IMG/VR virus record: IMGVR_UViG_3300045051_000838 | Coordinates: 1-27,566 of that record | From: a virus | Reading direction: 5' to 3' (one strand) | Length of the DNA: 27,566 bases | Shown here: piece by piece, positions 5,079 through 16,580 of the stretch | How positions within the stretch are numbered: position 1 is the first letter of the stretch | How the letters are laid out: the number at the start of each line of letters is the position of its first letter | Position numbers and translations under genes: made by a program | Notes under the pieces: generated by a model | The model's input: only the letters and a program-made list of their open reading frames with translations | Told to the model about the DNA's origin: nothing | Database searches by the model: none

Positions 5079-7613
5079 ATGCCAACGGTCAGAATTCGCA
5101 CTATTCCAATCAGCCGGACTCAGAAGAAGTTTCGCGAGTCGAAAGCTTGGATGACCGGCTTCTGCGCTGGACGTGGCGCCGGTAAGACTAAGATCGGTGC
5201 GATTCATATTTGTCGAACCGCTCGCAAAGACGATCCGTGCATGTGCATCTCGCCCGATGCCAACATGATCCGGGATACAACTCTGCCGACATTCATCGAG
5301 ACCGTGAAGTTTACCGGCCAGTACATTCGTCACGTCACGACACCAACCCCGCGCGTGCTCTTCTACACGGAAGACGGCGGCGTTTCGGAATTGATGTTCA
5401 AAGGTGCCGAAAAGCCGGACAAGTTACGCGGGCCAAGCAAAGCAATCCTTTGGTTCGACGAAGCGTCCATTATCAGCAAAGAAGCATTCGACTACGGCAT
5501 TGCTGTTTGCCGGCATCGCGGCCGCATGTCGCCGGTCCTTTGCACATTCACCCCTCGCGGCTTCAAGCACTGGACTTTCGAAAGCTTTTACGAGCCGATT
5601 GACGAAAGTATGATCGGCCAGATTGGAAACGATGGATCATCACTTGATGGAATCGAATGGTTCAAAGGTCGGCCGTATCGACCGAAACCCAACACGCATC
5701 TGATTTTCTGCGCGACAAAAGACAATCCGTTCGCCCCTCGCGAGTTTTCCGACATCATCGGAAGCAATTATTCGCAGATGTTGCGAGAGCAAGAACTAGG
5801 CGGCCAGTTCGTTGAGATATCGGGACTCATGTTTCGGCGCGAGTGGTTTCGCATGGTCGACGAATCGCCAAGGAACGCAACGAGAATTCGCTATTGGGAT
5901 AAAGCTTGCCTGATAGCAAGTACGAAAGTTGACACAATCAATGGACCGGTTTCTATCGAGAAAATTAAGAAAGGCGACAAGGTATTAACTCGCGACGGCT
6001 ATCGAAAAGTTGAATGGTCCGGAAAAACCAAGTCAACAAATCAAATCGTGTCTGTTGTTTTTTCCAACGGTTCTGTTGTGACTGGTACACGAGACCATTT
6101 GGTATGGACCAGGAACCGCAATTGGGTAGAACTAGGTTCTCTAAGAGATGGTGATCATGTTTTATCTGGCAATGAGGTTCGTGGCGAATGTCAAGAAAGC
6201 GAAACGAAAAGCTTGAATCGGTTGAGTTCAATGGCTTGCGATACGTTCGAAAGCCAAGGGGGCGATACTTCTACTGCAACCGCTGGAATCCTGAAAAAAA
6301 GCAATACGAATACCGTTCGTTGCACAGAGACATTTGGGAAAGCGTCCACGGGGACATACCCGATGGCCACCATATCCACCACATTGACAAAGACTGGAGC
6401 AATAACGACATATCGAATCTGGAGTGTTTGCCGCCGAAGGAACATTTCAAACTGCACCCAGAATTCAATAAGTCAGGAACTCCTTTCTCAAATCCAGAGC
6501 ATCACAGAAAAGCAATGGAAGCTCTTTCAGATTGGTTCAACCAGAATCGCGACAACGAAAAGTATAAGCAGCAATGCCGCGATCGAGGCTACGCAACATG
6601 GAGTAAGGTTCAAGCCAAGACTTACTGTTGCGAAAAGTGCGGGCAGAAGTTTGAGTCACGTAAAATCGGTACTCAGCCAAGATTTTGCTCAAAGAAGTGC
6701 TTTGCTAAATCAAGGGCACCAAAGCCAGAACGAAAGCGAGAGCTTGTTTGCGAAATATGCAATCGAACCTTTCAGGGATTTAGACGAACTAAAACGTGTT
6801 CAAACGCTTGTCGTCAAAGGTCAAGGAAAGCCAATTCCCGTTTACGATCTAACGGTTGATGATCGTCACGAATTCTTTGCCAATGGTGTGCTGGTTCACA
6901 ATTGCACTCCAGGATCAGGGGCTTACTCTGCCGGCGTGTTGATGGCTCGGGACGATCGAGGAATCTACTACGTCGAGGATGTTGTTCGCGGCCAATGGGG
7001 AGCCCATGAGCGAAATACGGTGATTCTTCAGACTGCTCAGCGCGACGCGTGGAAGTATCGAGGCAACGTAACGATCTACATCGAACAGGAAGGCGCGGGA
7101 TCCGGCAAGGAAGTTACCGATCAATTGATCGTCATGCTGTCCGAATTCCCTGTCTATCGCGATCTGGCGTCCGGGTCGGCTCAAGGCTTCAAGTTGAAAG
7201 GCGGCATTCGATTGCCGGGCGATGCGAAGATCAGGAGAGCTCAACCGTTTTCGGCTCAAGCGGAAGCTGGGAATGTGTGTGTTGTGAACGCTCGCTGGAA
7301 TGGCGATTTTTTAGAAGAGCTTTGCGCCTTTCCCGAGTATCGATTCGTCGACCAAGTAGACGCGGCCAGCGCGTGCATGTTGAAGCTTGCTGCTCAAGCT
7401 CCCGATGGGATCCACGCATCCCAAGATATCGTCAATACCGGCATCGACTTTGGTTTGCTCGGTTCGCTCGGTGGCAACGCTGCGGAACGATATCTCGAAG
7501 AATACTCGCGCGGGGCGAAGCGAAGTTATGACGTCGATCCTCGTGACTTGTTGGGTAACAACGATTCGAACGAAGACGACTATCTCAGTTCGCCTTTACC
7601 CTGGAATCGATGA
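5079..7613 (+). CDS. terL: Terminase large subunit interrupted by an intein
   Basis: The 844-codon frame encodes an ATP-driven DNA packaging motor plus nuclease, split by a 332-residue intein; the spliced protein would be 512 residues, normal for the family. Walker A is GRGAGKT (residues 31-37), Walker B ILWFDEA (123-129), and a coupling-motif-like CTFTPRG follows near residue 155. The RNase H-fold nuclease begins at RYWDKA, with the expected catalytic Asp at 274. Further nuclease signatures follow the intein: VTIYIEQEGAGSGKE and FPEYRFVDQVDAAS. The intein sits two residues after Asp274, at A276/C609, so the unspliced protein should have no assembled nuclease site. The ATG is two bases after the terS stop. 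The stop TGA overlaps an ATG at 7613. Confidence 0.92.
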   Translation: MPTVRIRTIPISRTQKKFRESKAWMTGFCAGRGAGKTKIGAIHICRTARKDDPCMCISPDANMIRDTTLPTFIETVKFTGQYIRHVTTPTPRVLFYTEDGGVSELMFKGAEKPDKLRGPSKAILWFDEASIISKEAFDYGIAVCRHRGRMSPVLCTFTPRGFKHWTFESFYEPIDESMIGQIGNDGSSLDGIEWFKGRPYRPKPNTHLIFCATKDNPFAPREFSDIIGSNYSQMLREQELGGQFVEISGLMFRREWFRMVDESPRNATRIRYWDKACLIASTKVDTINGPVSIEKIKKGDKVLTRDGYRKVEWSGKTKSTNQIVSVVFSNGSVVTGTRDHLVWTRNRNWVELGSLRDGDHVLSGNEVRGECQESETKSLNRLSSMACDTFESQGGDTSTATAGILKKSNTNTVRCTETFGKASTGTYPMATISTTLTKTGAITTYRIWSVCRRRNISNCTQNSISQELLSQIQSITEKQWKLFQIGSTRIATTKSISSNAAIEATQHGVRFKPRLTVAKSAGRSLSHVKSVLSQDFAQRSALLNQGHQSQNESESLFAKYAIEPFRDLDELKRVQTLVVKGQGKPIPVYDLTVDDRHEFFANGVLVHNCTPGSGAYSAGVLMARDDRGIYYVEDVVRGQWGAHERNTVILQTAQRDAWKYRGNVTIYIEQEGAGSGKEVTDQLIVMLSEFPVYRDLASGSAQGFKLKGGIRLPGDAKIRRAQPFSAQAEAGNVCVVNARWNGDFLEELCAFPEYRFVDQVDAASACMLKLAAQAPDGIHASQDIVNTGIDFGLLGSLGGNAAERYLEEYSRGAKRSYDVDPRDLLGNNDSNEDDYLSSPLPWNR
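5907..6902 (+). other. Intein in terminase large subunit, splicing domains only in the terminase frame
   Basis: The intein runs from Cys277 to Asn608 (332 residues) and is followed by Cys609 as C-extein +1. Block A is CLIASTKVDTINGPVSIEKI followed by KKGDKVLT. Block B is TGTRDHLVW with the TxxH pair T337 and H340. Block F is VYDLTVDDRHEFFANG and block G is VLVHN before Cys609, with penultimate His607 and terminal Asn608. These are the residues needed for class 1 protein splicing with a Cys nucleophile. Between about residues 370 and 570 the terminase frame has no endonuclease motif. It reads as a Ser/Thr/Asn-rich, poorly structured stretch because another gene is encoded there in a different frame. 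Base use here is visibly more A/T-rich than the flanking exteins, consistent with horizontal arrival. Confidence 0.92.
6188..6859 (+). CDS. HNH homing endonuclease nested out of frame inside the intein
   Basis: A 223-residue protein is encoded in a different frame from terL (positions 2 mod 3 against 0 mod 3). ATG 6188 lies ten bases after GAGG (6174-6177), a plausible ribosome binding site; the frame is closed upstream by TGA at 6173. Residues 45-80 match HNH enzymes of homing type: SLHRDIWESVHGDIPDG, then HHIHHIDKDWSNND (61-74) and NLECLPPKEHFKLH. Two Cys4 fingers follow: C148xxC151 with C167xxxC171, and C188xxC191 with C204xxxC208. Such fingers help DNA binding in phage homing nucleases. 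It begins where the N-terminal splicing domain ends and runs into the C-terminal one. Expected role: cutting intein-free terminase genes to spread the intein (inference). The third forward frame is closed by TGA at 6214. Confidence 0.88.
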   Translation: MSRKRNEKLESVEFNGLRYVRKPRGRYFYCNRWNPEKKQYEYRSLHRDIWESVHGDIPDGHHIHHIDKDWSNNDISNLECLPPKEHFKLHPEFNKSGTPFSNPEHHRKAMEALSDWFNQNRDNEKYKQQCRDRGYATWSKVQAKTYCCEKCGQKFESRKIGTQPRFCSKKCFAKSRAPKPERKRELVCEICNRTFQGFRRTKTCSNACRQRSRKANSRLRSNG

Positions 7614-11112: not shown

Positions 11113-11337
11113 TTGGCAGTCCGTAACTACGAAGAAGACGTTCTGAAAATCTGGTACGACAACAAAAACAACGACTCAAAGGTCGTCAAGTTCTATTCTC
11201 GACGGCGATTTGAAGACGGGCAAAAGCTGATCTGCTCACTCCAGCAGCAGGGCTTCATCGTGCGGTCGCAACGCATCAGCAAGCGGGAATTCAACACCTA
11301 CAAGCTTGCGAATCCGGATGTGAGATTGGTTGATTGA
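11113..11337 (+). CDS. Small basic protein, TTG start, unknown
   Basis: This 74-residue protein starts at TTG 11113, chosen because AAGGAG (11100-11105) lies eight bases upstream and there is no ATG in this position. The sequence is MAVRNYEEDVLKIWYDNKNN, then a KVVKFYSRRRFEDGQKLICS helix and LQQQGFIVRSQRISKREF. It looks like a compact alpha/beta fold of about 70 residues; I do not recognise the family. The stop TGA overlaps the ATG of the methyltransferase gene (TGATG), so the two are probably translated together. Confidence 0.65.
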   Translation: MAVRNYEEDVLKIWYDNKNNDSKVVKFYSRRRFEDGQKLICSLQQQGFIVRSQRISKREFNTYKLANPDVRLVD

Positions 11338-11876
11338 TGGGAAACATCATGCAAGAAGTAATAGTTCCTATCGTTAATCAACGAGGCATTGGCGGCCACA
11401 CATCTCCCAATCGTGGAGCAACAGATTCGTGGATCACTCCAAAGAACATTATCGACGCACTGGGGCCATTCGATTTGGATCCATGTCAATGCACTCCCCA
11501 GCCGTGGGCGTGCGCGGAAAACGCATTCACCATCGAACAAGATGGGCTTAGCCAAGATTGGTACGGTCGCGTTTGGCTCAACCCACCATACAGTGAAGTT
11601 TGGAAATGGATGGAAAAGCTTGCGGATCACGATCACGGCACGGCGTTGATTTTCGCAAGAACAGAAACAGAAGGTTTCGTCCAGCAAGTTTGGAAGCGGG
11701 CAACGGCGGTGATGTTTCTTCATGGTCGATTGTTTTTCCATAAGCCGGATGGAACCAGGGCGAAAGGAAACAGTGGCGGACCATCGTGTCTTGTCGCATA
11801 TGGGCACGATGATGCACAACGTTTGAAGTCGTCAGGATTGGCTGGGTCGATCGTTTATTGGGATTCGTCGTGGTAA
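11337..11876 (+). CDS. dam: DNA N6-adenine methyltransferase, phage Dam type
   Basis: This 179-residue protein starts at ATG 11337, overlapping the upstream stop. It matches the short phage Dam family (PF05869-type): DSWITPKNIIDALGPFDLDP carries the D-x-W-x-TP start and the FDLDP AdoMet-binding loop, followed by CQCTP and GLSQDWYGRVWLNPPYSEVW with the NPPY catalytic motif IV. The end is ALIFARTETEGFVQQVW and FLHGRLFFHKPDG. The family modifies adenine in short sites, often GATC, to escape host restriction or regulate packaging; the exact site is not readable from the sequence. GATC occurs very often in this window, so most genes would carry target sites if that is the specificity. It lies between portal and polyvalent-protein genes. 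Confidence 0.85.
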   Translation: MGNIMQEVIVPIVNQRGIGGHTSPNRGATDSWITPKNIIDALGPFDLDPCQCTPQPWACAENAFTIEQDGLSQDWYGRVWLNPPYSEVWKWMEKLADHDHGTALIFARTETEGFVQQVWKRATAVMFLHGRLFFHKPDGTRAKGNSGGPSCLVAYGHDDAQRLKSSGLAGSIVYWDSSW

Positions 11877-11909
11877 CGCAATCTATTGTTGATGCTCAAA
11901 GGTGAAAAA

Positions 11910-14900
11910 ATGGTTCTGCTCGTTGACGATACAACTCGGGAATTCTTCGCAGCTGCTTGGGATCAAGCTTGCGTCGAAGTCGATCGGTACGCTCGATCAA
12001 AAGCGAATCCGCATTCTCCAGCTTTGTTCGACGATGCTGGCAACGCTCGATGGATCACAATTGGCGGCGATGTTGGGGCGGATGGTAAGAAGCACGGCGG
12101 TCATCCGGTGAAGATCACGAAAGATGGCACGATGCTGACAGGCCATTTTGCGGGAAAGAAGGTTGATGAGGCGTTTGGTGGTAAGGCGAGTGAGCCGAGT
12201 GAGCCAACTGAGCCAAGCAAGCCCAGCGAGCATGGATATTTTCGCGGCAACAAAGGCCGCAAGACTGGCCGCAAGCAGACAATGCACGGCGGTGAGTTTG
12301 AAGAGCTGGAAATGCTCGAGGGCGAACACAAAGGCCAAATGAAATGGATCCCGACAAAAGAGCAGGACGATAAAAACGTCCAACAGACTCAACAGCGACA
12401 CGCGGACATGCAAGCGGGTTTTAAGCGGCTGAATGAAGCTCAAGGTCAGCCAACTGAGCCGAACAAGCCAAAAACCGACTGGGGCAAGCGGCTCGATGAT
12501 CTGCAGCAGCGGCGAGATCCGGACGGGATTGAAAAGCCGAAGCCATCGCCAGTAATCGAGCCACCCAAACCAACTTCCAACGAATCCGCCAAACCCGGCG
12601 ACCAACTCGGCCTGTTCGGCGAAGCAACCCAATCACCATCCCCAAAACCCAAAATCGACGGCGATCCAAAAGCCAAGCAAGGGGCGTTGTTCAACACGTC
12701 CGGCGCGGCTGGGCAAATGGATTTGTTTGATGCGGATAAAGCGACTCCAGATGATTTGGTTTGGAAGGGACAGGGACAGCAGCAGGGGCAAGGCGACAAG
12801 CCGAAACAAGAACCCTCTTCTCCTGGCGGGACTCCTGAACAACCTAAGCCAGCATCAGCAAAACCAAAGAAGCCATTCGTCTATCCGAACGGCATGACGC
12901 AATCATTCGACTCCGAAGGTAAACCAGCTGCTATTCCAACCGAACCCAAACCAACCGCCCCCGAGAAAGCAACTCAATCGTTCGATGCGGCAATCAACGC
13001 GGGCGAAACTCCACGGCAAGCGGCTGCAGCGGCAACGAAGGCCATGGATGCCGATTACGAGTTTGCTCGAGCTTCAACCGTTTCGAATGCGGGTGAAGAC
13101 CTGAAGGGATCGGCACGCCATAAGGTGAACGCATGGCGAAGCCTCGAAGACGCGGAAAAGAACGGCACAGCGAAGGAGCTCGTGACTCGCGATCAGCTTT
13201 TGAAGAACGAGCCGCATGATCTGATGATTCATGCGGATCGCAATCCGTTGACGTCACTTGCGATGCACTTTGCTCTACGGTCGTTTCCAGCCAAACCAGG
13301 CACGAAGCTGGCGGCGAACGCAAAGAAAGACCGCGAGCAATTTTTGGAAGCCTATCGAAGCGTCAAGGCGAAAGCGGAAGAACTGGCGAAGGGTACGGAA
13401 GCTGAAGATGCACTTGGAAAGCTTCAGTCTCACGTTTCGGATTTGATCAAGAAGTTCCGGGGTCAAACGTCGAGCGGATCCATGGGGCTGGCTTCTGCGA
13501 CCGACAAGTACAATCAGACAGCGAATGATTTGGTTGGATTTGCAAATTCTCTGGCTAACGGCTGGCGAGCTCCAAAGAATGGTCCGTATGGTCGACTGAA
13601 AGAATTCATGGACGCGGCTAAGGAACGCTACGGCTCTGACGCAGCCTCTCACGAAAACTTGCCCGATCACGTCAAGGACATCATCGAAGGCGCTTCGATG
13701 AATAAGACGTTTGACAAAGAGGCCAAGCAGTCGAATCGGTTCAATCCGGCCGATATGTACGTCAAGATCGCAACGCGTAACGGCGGACGCGATCTAAGCA
13801 GCATTACCAGCGACCCGAACAAAGCTACCAACCACATGATCAAGGAAATGGGGCTTCGCGGGGTCCAGTGGGGCAATAGCGTTACGGACGACGAACGCCA
13901 GCACCATGCAGCGAAAGCGGTTGAAGCATTAACGGATTTGGCGGATGCTCTTGGCCTGCACCCGAAGGATATAGCACTGAACGGCAAACTCGGCCTGGCT
14001 ATCGGTGCGCGCGGTCGCGGTGGAGCGGTCGCACATTACGAACCAGATACGCAAGTCATCAACCTCACGCGAGCGAATGGCGTCGGTTCGCTTGCTCACG
14101 AATGGGGCCATGCGTTCGACCATTCATTGGCGGATTTTGCGCTGAAGAAAGATTCGTCGGAAATGATGTCGGATGTCGCACATCATACGCACCGATTGAC
14201 GAATCCCGAAGGTACATACTCAGCAACAACGGATAGCGGAACGGCCGAAAGGCACATCAAAAACAATAGCGGATGGAAGGTCGAAGAGCTGAAAAATGCT
14301 GAAGTTCGCAAAGCTTTTCAGTCTTTGAAATTAGCTCAAGAAAAGTATCGCGATCGACTACGGGACGAACTCCGGTCGATGATTCGTGACAAGTTTACGA
14401 GCGTCAAAAAGGCAAATGACTACTGGAATTCAGAGCCCGAGATTTTCGCAAGAACATTCGAGCGATACGTTCAACACAAGATCGAGTCGAGCGGCAAGAA
14501 AAATACCTACTTGGCTGGCATCGAAACGAAATCTCACAAAGCTGGCGGTTTATGGCCTACAGACGATGAAGTCAAGGCGATGGCCCCGGCGTTCGACAAG
14601 CTTTTTGCAGAGTTCCGGAAGCAAAAATACGGCTCGGAGGAAGTGGTAAAGTACTCTCAGGCTGAACTGCTCGAAGCGGCTGCGATGCTGATCGGAACTG
14701 GCGATCTGTTTTTTGATGTTGAACGATACCGAAGCGAATGCCGATTTTTCTTGATGCAGTATTCCCAGTGGGCAAATGGTGCGAAAGTGGATCGATACGA
14801 TTGGAACGAATCTCAACATCCGCGACACCCAGCCGGCGCACCTCGCGGCATGGGCGGTGAGTTTGCTGGTCGCGGATCCTCTCTTCCTGGCGGGAATCGA

Positions 14901-16580
14901 ATTGCATCTCAGTCGACATCCCAGTCAACATCCAACCCATCCGGTCCACCCCCAACCCTCAACAGCAAGCAGCGAGAACTGCCCGAGCGTCCTCAAATCA
15001 GCCAAAACCATCCTTTACACTGGCGGCAGATTCCCGATGGTACAGCAATGATCGGCACAATGGACTTTGCTAAGGGGTTGAGAAATCTGATGGCGGAAGC
15101 TCAACGAGCTGCGGGGCCACAAGCGAACGAAGAGACCGTTTGGGCGCGAGTCGACAAGCGGCGATTGCAGGGACTGCTTGACTCGATGAATCGCATGGAC
15201 AAAGAAGCGATGGCTAAGGGCATCAAGCTGCATGAGTACGTGAATGCAAGCGGATTGATTCCGCCGATGATTGCAGAGCGACTGCATGGTGGTAGCAGAT
15301 TTTTTGATCCGACTTTGCTTCGCGGGAAGTTTAATCAGCCTGATGTCGAGAAAACCTCATCGAAAAGCTTTGCCGATCAGATTGGAGCGAACAAGCCGCA
15401 ACCTGAGTCGGAGGCTAAATCAGGAGGCAAGCAGCGATCGCAAGCAGCTACAAGAACAGACGAACCTAAGCCTAAGAAAACTGCGGCAGAATCACGATTG
15501 GATAACCAGCTGACGGACGCGATCCGAAAGCACCTGGGGTCCGACGATGAATCCATGATCGACGAATTCAAACAGTTTCACTCGGAAGCACACAAGCAGC
15601 TGACGGACGAAGCGAACGAAACGAATCGAATGATCCGCGAGATCACAGGAACAGCTAAGAATCTCGGCGAAAGTCGAAGCGGATTCAACGAGCAGGGCCA
15701 GCAAGCGTCTTTGCTTCGCAATCCGATGGAAACAGGAAAGCTGATGAAGAAAGCTCGACAAGGTTTGTTGGATCCCTCCAAGGAGAAGGGTTTCGACGAA
15801 TTGGTCGATTGGGCTGAGCGTCATTACCCGCACTTACTGAAAGGCAACGGCGAACAGGGCTTGGTCGATCTGCTGGCCGGTGGCTTTCGAGTTCCGCCAA
15901 GTCGATTGTCGGATGAGGTGATGGAGCACGCCTCCACTCTGGCGGGACCATCATTTTTCGAGGCATTGGCGAATGGCGGCCAAGCTCCCGTGCCGGATGA
16001 TGGAGTAGACTGGGAGCAAGTCCCGTTTTCGGCGGTGGCGTTCAATCGGATTTGGAATATGGTGGTGGTCGAGCGGTATGGATCTATTCACGAAGCCACC
16101 CTCCGCGAATTCGCTCGCCACCATTCCCAGCCGACTCCAGCCCAACGAGAAGCAGGAAACTACAAGAAGGGCCACATTCGATTCCAGGGCTTGGACATTG
16201 CGATCGAGACGCCGAAGGGCAAGCGTCGACGTCCTGAATGGCCGCCAATGGGCGCGCATTATGGCTACATCAAGCGAACCGAAGGCAAAGACGGCGATCA
16301 TCTTGACGTTTTTGTTGGTCCTGATGAGACAAGCCCGATCGTTTTCATCGTCGATCAAATGAACGCTGACGGCAAGTTCGATGAGCATAAATGTCTGCTG
16401 GGTTTCCGAACGCACAAGCAAGCGATCGAAGCCTACAAAGCTTCGTACTCGGCTGGCTGGAAAGTTGGCCAAGTCAGCGCGATGACGATGGAGCAATTTA
16501 AAAATTGGATCGAAGATGGAGATTTGAAGAAGCCTGCGAGTGTGCAGGTCAACCGCTATGCCATGGCGCGAATGGTGTGA
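11910..16580 (+). CDS. Polyvalent protein: LPD1-like HEWGH domain and inorganic-pyrophosphatase-like domain
   Basis: This 1,556-residue protein starts at ATG 11910, behind AGGTGA. In order: an N-terminal small domain (residues 1-80), a long Pro/Lys/Gln-rich linker, and a helical domain from about 350 (AGEDLKGSARHKVNAWRSLE, LLKNEPHDLM), probably one of the polyvalent-associated LPD modules. Then comes an LPD1-like zincin segment, GLAIGARGRGGAVAHYEP and GSLAHEWGHAFDHSL, with H730, E731 and H734. Near 966 it carries WNESQHPRHPAGAPRG and GGEFA, a motif common in phage head proteins. After another linker, residues 1386-1541 resemble the inorganic-pyrophosphatase-like domain of polyvalent proteins: GDHLDVFVGP, FIVDQMNADGKFDEHK, CLLGFRTHKQAIEAY. 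Polyvalent proteins are thought to be injected with phage DNA to protect it or alter the host. Four dispersed-repeat copies lie in its linkers. Confidence 0.8.
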   Translation: MVLLVDDTTREFFAAAWDQACVEVDRYARSKANPHSPALFDDAGNARWITIGGDVGADGKKHGGHPVKITKDGTMLTGHFAGKKVDEAFGGKASEPSEPTEPSKPSEHGYFRGNKGRKTGRKQTMHGGEFEELEMLEGEHKGQMKWIPTKEQDDKNVQQTQQRHADMQAGFKRLNEAQGQPTEPNKPKTDWGKRLDDLQQRRDPDGIEKPKPSPVIEPPKPTSNESAKPGDQLGLFGEATQSPSPKPKIDGDPKAKQGALFNTSGAAGQMDLFDADKATPDDLVWKGQGQQQGQGDKPKQEPSSPGGTPEQPKPASAKPKKPFVYPNGMTQSFDSEGKPAAIPTEPKPTAPEKATQSFDAAINAGETPRQAAAAATKAMDADYEFARASTVSNAGEDLKGSARHKVNAWRSLEDAEKNGTAKELVTRDQLLKNEPHDLMIHADRNPLTSLAMHFALRSFPAKPGTKLAANAKKDREQFLEAYRSVKAKAEELAKGTEAEDALGKLQSHVSDLIKKFRGQTSSGSMGLASATDKYNQTANDLVGFANSLANGWRAPKNGPYGRLKEFMDAAKERYGSDAASHENLPDHVKDIIEGASMNKTFDKEAKQSNRFNPADMYVKIATRNGGRDLSSITSDPNKATNHMIKEMGLRGVQWGNSVTDDERQHHAAKAVEALTDLADALGLHPKDIALNGKLGLAIGARGRGGAVAHYEPDTQVINLTRANGVGSLAHEWGHAFDHSLADFALKKDSSEMMSDVAHHTHRLTNPEGTYSATTDSGTAERHIKNNSGWKVEELKNAEVRKAFQSLKLAQEKYRDRLRDELRSMIRDKFTSVKKANDYWNSEPEIFARTFERYVQHKIESSGKKNTYLAGIETKSHKAGGLWPTDDEVKAMAPAFDKLFAEFRKQKYGSEEVVKYSQAELLEAAAMLIGTGDLFFDVERYRSECRFFLMQYSQWANGAKVDRYDWNESQHPRHPAGAPRGMGGEFAGRGSSLPGGNRIASQSTSQSTSNPSGPPPTLNSKQRELPERPQISQNHPLHWRQIPDGTAMIGTMDFAKGLRNLMAEAQRAAGPQANEETVWARVDKRRLQGLLDSMNRMDKEAMAKGIKLHEYVNASGLIPPMIAERLHGGSRFFDPTLLRGKFNQPDVEKTSSKSFADQIGANKPQPESEAKSGGKQRSQAATRTDEPKPKKTAAESRLDNQLTDAIRKHLGSDDESMIDEFKQFHSEAHKQLTDEANETNRMIREITGTAKNLGESRSGFNEQGQQASLLRNPMETGKLMKKARQGLLDPSKEKGFDELVDWAERHYPHLLKGNGEQGLVDLLAGGFRVPPSRLSDEVMEHASTLAGPSFFEALANGGQAPVPDDGVDWEQVPFSAVAFNRIWNMVVVERYGSIHEATLREFARHHSQPTPAQREAGNYKKGHIRFQGLDIAIETPKGKRRRPEWPPMGAHYGYIKRTEGKDGDHLDVFVGPDETSPIVFIVDQMNADGKFDEHKCLLGFRTHKQAIEAYKASYSAGWKVGQVSAMTMEQFKNWIEDGDLKKPASVQVNRYAMARMV
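12813..12831 (+). repeat. Dispersed CCTGGCGGG repeat in polyvalent-protein linker
   Basis: CCCTCTTCTCCTGGCGGGA is in frame and encodes PSSPGGT within the long proline-rich linker. Confidence 0.65.
14878..14896 (+). repeat. Dispersed CCTGGCGGG repeat after the GGEFAGRG motif
   Basis: CCTCTCTTCCTGGCGGGAA encodes SSLPGGN directly behind the conserved GGEFAGRG motif, at the start of a linker rich in Ser and Thr. Confidence 0.65.

Follow-up and report, generated by a model that had tools for sequence, protein, structure and literature searches.

The terminase gene (terL) of the virus record IMGVR_UViG_3300045051_000838, analysed as one stretch of 27,566 nucleotides (hereafter the window), raises the question whether an intein can carry its homing endonuclease as a second gene, written in another frame of the same DNA. 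In textbook large inteins the endonuclease is fused to the splicing domain. The reading that we prefer, with a probability of roughly 0.8, is that of a mobile intein in TerL with a homing endonuclease encoded by a gene of its own that overlaps it; the splicing of the protein, the synthesis of the HNH protein, homing and the evolutionary direction are inferred in this reading.

The intein in the terminase gene

The TerL gene and its insert are composed as follows (positions in the window; residues of the TerL product unless stated otherwise):

5079-7613, + strand: TerL gene with intein, 844 aa, one open frame (frame 0)
5079-5906, + strand: N-extein of TerL
5907-6902, + strand: intein, 332 aa, C277 to N608, at the first nuclease (RNase H) motif of TerL
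5907-6176, + strand: N-terminal splicing half with Cys277 of block A, Hint fold predicted for intein residues 1-90
6087-6098, + strand: block B, T337-x-x-H340, the His (His64 of the intein) being invariant in an alignment of 46 rows
6207-6803, + strand: in-frame filler, intein residues about 101-299, predicted to be unstructured
6804-6902, + strand: C-terminal splicing half, blocks F and G, H607-N608, then C609
6903-7613, + strand: C-extein of TerL

The ORF is matched by Pfam Terminase_6N and Terminase_6C, and its insert by Pfam Intein_splicing (6.8e-9) and by NCBIfam intein_Cterm TIGR01443 (6.4e-8). Once joined, the exteins match intein-less TerL proteins without a break, for instance that of Pseudomonas phage PHB09, where the junction RIRYWDKA/CTPGSGA (slash at the insertion point) aligns residue by residue to RVRAWDISGSVPSE. 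Therefore, the intein is truly inserted, at a site whose empty form can be recognised. This empty site rests on distant TerL proteins, since the scans used found no close TerL relative of the window in IMG/VR, neither with nor without an intein. The key residues C277, T337/H340, H607/N608 and the +1 residue C609 are all present. The insert thereby has what defines a class 1 intein of the Hint type, namely a nucleophile at position 1, block B and a terminal HN followed by C, and it also lies in frame at a conserved host motif that is empty in relatives. Judged by its sequence, the presence of a complete intein in the ORF 5079-7613 is confirmed, protein splicing itself being inferred.

AlphaFold2 was run on the intein of the window together with 45 relatives, and rows from phage records were left out of the structure alignments. 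The pLDDT was 92-98 for intein residues 1-90 and 79-98 for residues 300-333, and mostly below 50 in the filler, which amounts to a confident prediction of a Hint fold with an unstructured filler. The top fold match of the intein in Foldseek is the gp41-1 intein, with the MchDnaB intein also matched, and gp41-1 (6qaz, E 1e-16) is the nearest solved splicing domain in a profile search of the PDB as well.

Elsewhere in the window, a DNA methyltransferase gene (11334-11876) is followed by a gene (11886-16580) for a polyvalent protein of 1564 aa, which matches endolysin, DarB-like and minor head profiles.

The HNH gene and its relatives

The second gene and the elements around its start are located as follows:

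6173-6175, + strand: TGA closing the HNH frame 12 nt before the HNH ATG
6174-6177, + strand: GAGG, possible ribosome-binding site of the HNH gene, ending 10 nt before the ATG
6188-6859, + strand: HNH endonuclease gene, 223 aa, in the +2 frame relative to TerL, with its own ATG
6320-6445, + strand: HNH motif region, residues 45-86, as defined by the HNH alignment
6629-6700, + strand: first Cys4 zinc finger (C148, C151, C167, C171)
6749-6811, + strand: second Cys4 zinc finger (C188, C191, C204, C208)

The end of this gene is co-encoded by the first 56 nt of the C-terminal splicing half. Its product matches HNH_3 (3.1e-15) and, over residues 10-217, PHROG 15471 'HNH endonuclease' (2.3e-31). In the HNH alignment, H46, H64, H65 and H86 of the motif are invariant and D67, N73 and N77 nearly so, and both Cys4 fingers are invariant in an alignment of 43 rows. 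The HNH motif with flanking DNA-binding zinc fingers is what characterises an HNH homing endonuclease. The AlphaFold2 model of the product has a mean pLDDT of 90.5, and the nearest PDB fold is I-HmuI, a weak match; a search of the HNH profile against the PDB by sequence found no homing endonuclease. A sequence-only reading of this locus had named the intein blocks, their residues and a 223-aa HNH protein in a different frame, and all of these are present as described.

The canonical large inteins of mycobacteriophage TerL (PMC5050341) resemble that of the window in having the endonuclease between blocks B and F and in being inserted at the active centre of TerL, whereas the endonuclease of the window lies in another frame and would be a separate protein. 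Since HNH genes are common in phage introns, one could also think of a group I intron with an HNH ORF, which is removed from the RNA. This is virtually ruled out, as no Rfam intron match was obtained even at E 10, the intein blocks are intact and the frame is open across the insert.

Relatives were sought in IMG/VR and GTDB, and among isolate phages by tblastn. Most of the loci are metagenome contigs. Since the scans used pattern prefilters and only the best 80 loci were kept, the numbers of relatives given here are samples and not a census. With a single HNH sequence as query, one weak locus was obtained in viruses and none in genomes; with four HNH sequences, the scan of viral contigs gave the best 80 loci. 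Among the distinct HNH loci listed, 64 of 90 lie within a stop-free ORF of the host frame and 26 do not. The same layout, with an in-frame TerL intein and the HNH at +2, was detected by tblastn in the isolates Tetrasphaera phage TJE1 and Acinetobacter phage Highwayman, whose public records annotate only terL at this locus. Further loci were found on genome contigs of Omnitrophota, Bacteroidota, Nitrospirota, Patescibacteria and a Thermoplasmatales archaeon. The splicing domain was found among isolate phages only in TJE1, Highwayman, a Rhodobacteraceae phage, Vibrio phage 1.265.O and vir335. Residue 1 is a Cys in all 75 listed host ORFs with an intact intein N-terminus, and the block B His as well as an Asn followed by Cys or Ser at the C-junction are nearly universal among them.

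Inteins found through the HNH and inteins found through the splicing domain were pooled and thinned to less than 90% identity, which left 119 among the loci listed. The HNH is present in 111 and absent in 8 of these, and its offset is +2 in 111/111, with no case in frame and none at +1. Because nested loci had been defined via the open host frame, there was a risk of circularity, which was removed by a repetition of the test on loci found by the N-terminal splicing half alone. In this second sample of 55 inteins, 47 possess an HNH, always at +2 (47/47), and 8 do not. The HNH-less inteins comprise five mini-inteins of 121-138 aa and three with an opposite-strand nuclease. Weak partial in-frame matches to the HNH motif in L121-L124, L129, L130, L134 and L135 were set aside, and the intein blocks of these loci are unexamined. 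One TerL ORF (L056) contains two inteins with the HNH at +2 in both.

A separate observation concerns a 1402-aa ORF (L115, which equals L116) that has no TerL match in Pfam and contains a LAGLIDADG domain in frame. Its second intein carries an out-of-frame HNH. The match coordinates and scores of L115 and L116 are identical in two genomes that are assigned to different phyla.

The out-of-frame HNH is the regular layout throughout a large family of TerL inteins and not a lone oddity. The decoupling of the HNH from the intein frame, which had been read from the window alone, is real and conserved: the in-frame fusion in close relatives that would have spoken against it occurs in 0/111, and the search for related terminases with the same offset was successful and extended to isolates. 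A sequencing or assembly frameshift, or two compensating indels that displaced an in-frame endonuclease, had to be considered as well, since the window is an IMG/VR virus record, for which an assembly error is possible a priori. Such an artefact is for all practical purposes excluded, because independent phages share the layout, TJE1 and Highwayman being sequenced isolates.

The open host frame and the start of the HNH gene

Taken by itself, the HNH gene of the window is only slightly unusual in its open host frame, with a probability of 0.07 if the codons of the full HNH are shuffled within the gene and of 0.11-0.15 under other shuffle variants. The case for a frame that is kept open therefore rests on the family. 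In the 99 intact non-redundant HNH genes there is not a single stop in the host frame, whereas synonymous shuffling leads to an expectation of 190 (within-gene) to 476 (GC-matched). The corresponding expectations are 113.6 and 297.6 for the 59 genes found through the HNH (set 1), and 76.7 and 178.0 for the 40 genes found through the splicing domain (set 2), with 0 stops in either set. Stops in the third frame are about as numerous as expected (683 vs 645 in set 2), and in free-standing HNHs the corresponding frame contains 7.6 stops per gene, 7.2 being expected. The lack of stops where so many are expected indicates that the host frame is kept open, and this implies its translation. No offset except +2 is seen because the remaining frame would contain about 20 stops in each gene.

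The substitutions in eight close pairs (194, 170 and 373 at codon positions 1, 2 and 3) point to ordinary purifying selection on the HNH. The identity of the filler peptides is no higher than that of the same frame of free-standing HNHs, and for this reason no sequence constraint of its own is seen for the filler. The pattern of HNH and filler identity in nested copies is likewise the same as in free-standing copies.

The HNH start codon is ATG in 99 of 111 copies, GTG in 9 and TTG in 1 (ATG or GTG in 108/109), and its median distance from the intein start is 266 nt (quartiles 257-275). In 94 of 109 copies a stop closes the HNH frame no more than 60 nt before the start codon, and the median distance of the stop from the start is 12 nt. 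Hardly any space remains for a frameshift into the HNH frame, which argues for internal initiation. A strong SD-like core is present in 28 of 64 relatives, compared to about 10.5 expected, and is missing in 36; the SD of the window HNH is weak and far (10 nt).

The constant offset of +2 (= -1) would also fit a conserved shift, so that the HNH might be reached via programmed ribosomal frameshifting and fused to the N-terminal intein half. We consider this very improbable. The HNH frame is interrupted just ahead of the start, in the window by the TGA at 6173-6175, nearly all copies have a start codon, SD-like cores are in excess, and free-standing HNH relatives start at the same residue. The constancy of the offset is moreover explained by the stops in the other frame. 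Internal initiation, as already proposed from the window alone, is well supported by the start codon and the closed upstream frame, but synthesis of the HNH protein has not been shown.

Proposed gain, loss and splitting of the endonuclease gene

In many phages a free-standing HNH adjoins an intein-less terL. The free-standing HNHs beside terL in Lactobacillus phage CL2, Pseudomonas phage PAE1, Sphaerotilus phage SN1 and Acinetobacter phage BP10 represent the same HNH and zinc-finger protein as in the window over the whole length, but they lie outside an intein and have stops in both alternative frames. Among the inteins listed, 12/111 contain a broken HNH with internal stops, while the host frame is still open. 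The intein of L158 and L159 has 138 aa and no HNH, that of L165 has 329 aa, and the phages are about 96-98% identical; here the HNH has apparently been lost in frame, with its last bases left behind. The archaeal virus vir335 (L250) possesses a 132-aa intein without HNH and L028 one of 345 aa, with flanks that are 98.7-99.5% identical. From these comparisons, both pairs are to be seen as containing natural alleles that have lost the HNH or are empty. Its presence in some alleles and absence from others agrees with homing, for which cleavage and copying are inferred.

There is also a split form, TerL-IntN, stop, HNH and IntC-TerL, which was seen in L065 and L092; in L080, L083 and L086 only the IntN side, with the HNH after it, is clear. 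The intein of the window is not split, as its halves are joined within the one open frame 5079-7613. The free-standing, nested, HNH-less and split states would fit a course of gene entry, nested life, and loss or splitting. In the HNH tree the nested state needs nine changes and the deep branches are unresolved; the tree gives neither the direction nor the number of events and cannot decide between a single and several origins. The distances of HNH and splicing domain are only moderately correlated (Mantel r 0.43), and therefore new pairings of intein and HNH may have arisen on more than one occasion.

The activity of the window's own HNH copy is unproven and is the least certain step, since it lies on a long branch of the HNH tree and shares only about 35% identity with its closest relatives. 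Decayed HNHs being common in the family, the copy in the window might be an inactive remnant that is no longer expressed, and the intein a mere passenger. This is unlikely, though not to be dismissed, as the HNH ORF is of full length and retains all those residues of the HNH motif and the zinc fingers that are invariant in the family.

Nuclease-like ORFs of 246-373 aa were also observed in the intein loops of MuF-like minor head genes, on the strand opposite to the host gene and codon-aligned in 5/5:

L162, 1683-2456, - strand: nuclease ORF, Pfam DUF559/MTES_1575/Vsr, Cys-rich fingers
L196, 1361-2191, - strand: nuclease ORF, Pfam DUF559/MTES_1575/Vsr, Cys-rich fingers
L200, 1021-1866, - strand: nuclease ORF, Pfam DUF559/MTES_1575/Vsr, Cys-rich fingers
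L228, 2824-3945, host gene on the - strand: nuclease-like ORF, recognised by eye
L251 (Vibrio phage 1.265.O), 3139-3879, - strand: nuclease-like ORF, recognised by eye

It is conceivable that the overlap is real and that the HNH serves DNA packaging rather than homing. Many free-standing HNH relatives directly adjoin terL, and such a role, as proposed for the HNH proteins next to the terminase in HK97 and GVE2, is reported for terminase-linked HNH proteins (PMC10448857, PMC5304195). PMC10448857 discusses homing genes beside terL and collaborative homing, too. A packaging role nevertheless appears quite unlikely to us, given that near-identical phages retain the intein without the HNH, that broken copies occur, that the HNH of L115 resides in an ORF without Pfam TerL identity and that the equivalent inteins in MuF-like genes carry zinc-finger nucleases.

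For the mobile intein with a separate overlapping endonuclease gene, the following mechanism can be proposed. Translation of terL from its own start would continue in frame across the entire insert, the two intein halves would fold as a Hint domain, the disordered loop of roughly 200 residues, which would be nothing but the wrong-frame reading of the HNH gene, would be looped out, and the intein would splice itself out of TerL. The HNH protein would be produced from the same mRNA by internal initiation at the ATG at 6188 and, as a homing endonuclease, would cut intein-free terL, whereupon repair would copy intein and HNH together. The arrangement may have originated when a free-standing HNH gene of the kind that neighbours terL in many phages, complete with start and stop, was inserted into a mini-intein at its loop, and later selection would demand only a stop-free host frame. 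The HNH gene is thus best read as a passenger in the intein loop, where any stop-free sequence would be tolerated by the intein.

The ShiLan domain, for which an HNH lies out of frame within a phage methylase that has no splicing domain, is the closest published precedent (PMC11855218). It resembles the window in that the HNH lies in another frame, the host frame is open and the start codon is its own. Unlike the window HNH, which is located within a complete Hint domain in TerL, it lacks a splicing domain and is believed to remain part of the methylase. The same paper cites a 2025 preprint for overlapping reading frames in actinobacteriophages, which may describe related inteins. The earlier statement that no described intein with this arrangement is known holds in so far as ShiLan lacks a splicing domain and we found no description of an intein layout with an out-of-frame HNH in the literature searched, but the out-of-frame HNH in a phage gene as such is published. 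Priority is uncertain, since the 2025 preprint on actinobacteriophage inteins of 'non-canonical architecture' was outside our comparison.

We consider it fairly probable that intein loops generally serve as places where free-standing endonuclease genes can settle, in whichever register is free of stops, as for the HNH at +2 in TerL and the opposite-strand Vsr/DUF559 ORFs in MuF-like genes, that both genes would be selected separately, and that stops arising in the host frame would lead to natural split inteins. Split inteins of 'fractured genes' (gp41-1, NrdJ-1) have reportedly been described by Dassa et al. in 2009, a study cited in PMC10448857. They include the solved splicing domain nearest to that of the window, gp41-1, and likewise have an endonuclease gene between the intein halves, whereas the halves in the window are still joined by an open frame and five relatives are split.

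The layout suggests how endonuclease genes enter and leave inteins. Since free-standing, nested and split forms of one endonuclease occur at one locus, the origin of split inteins becomes testable, including those of the gp41-1 type that are used in protein engineering. Gene callers hide such nested endonucleases, as in the TJE1 and Highwayman records. Across this family of TerL inteins, which extends over phages and over contigs from several bacterial phyla and archaea, separate genes sharing the same DNA are the rule.
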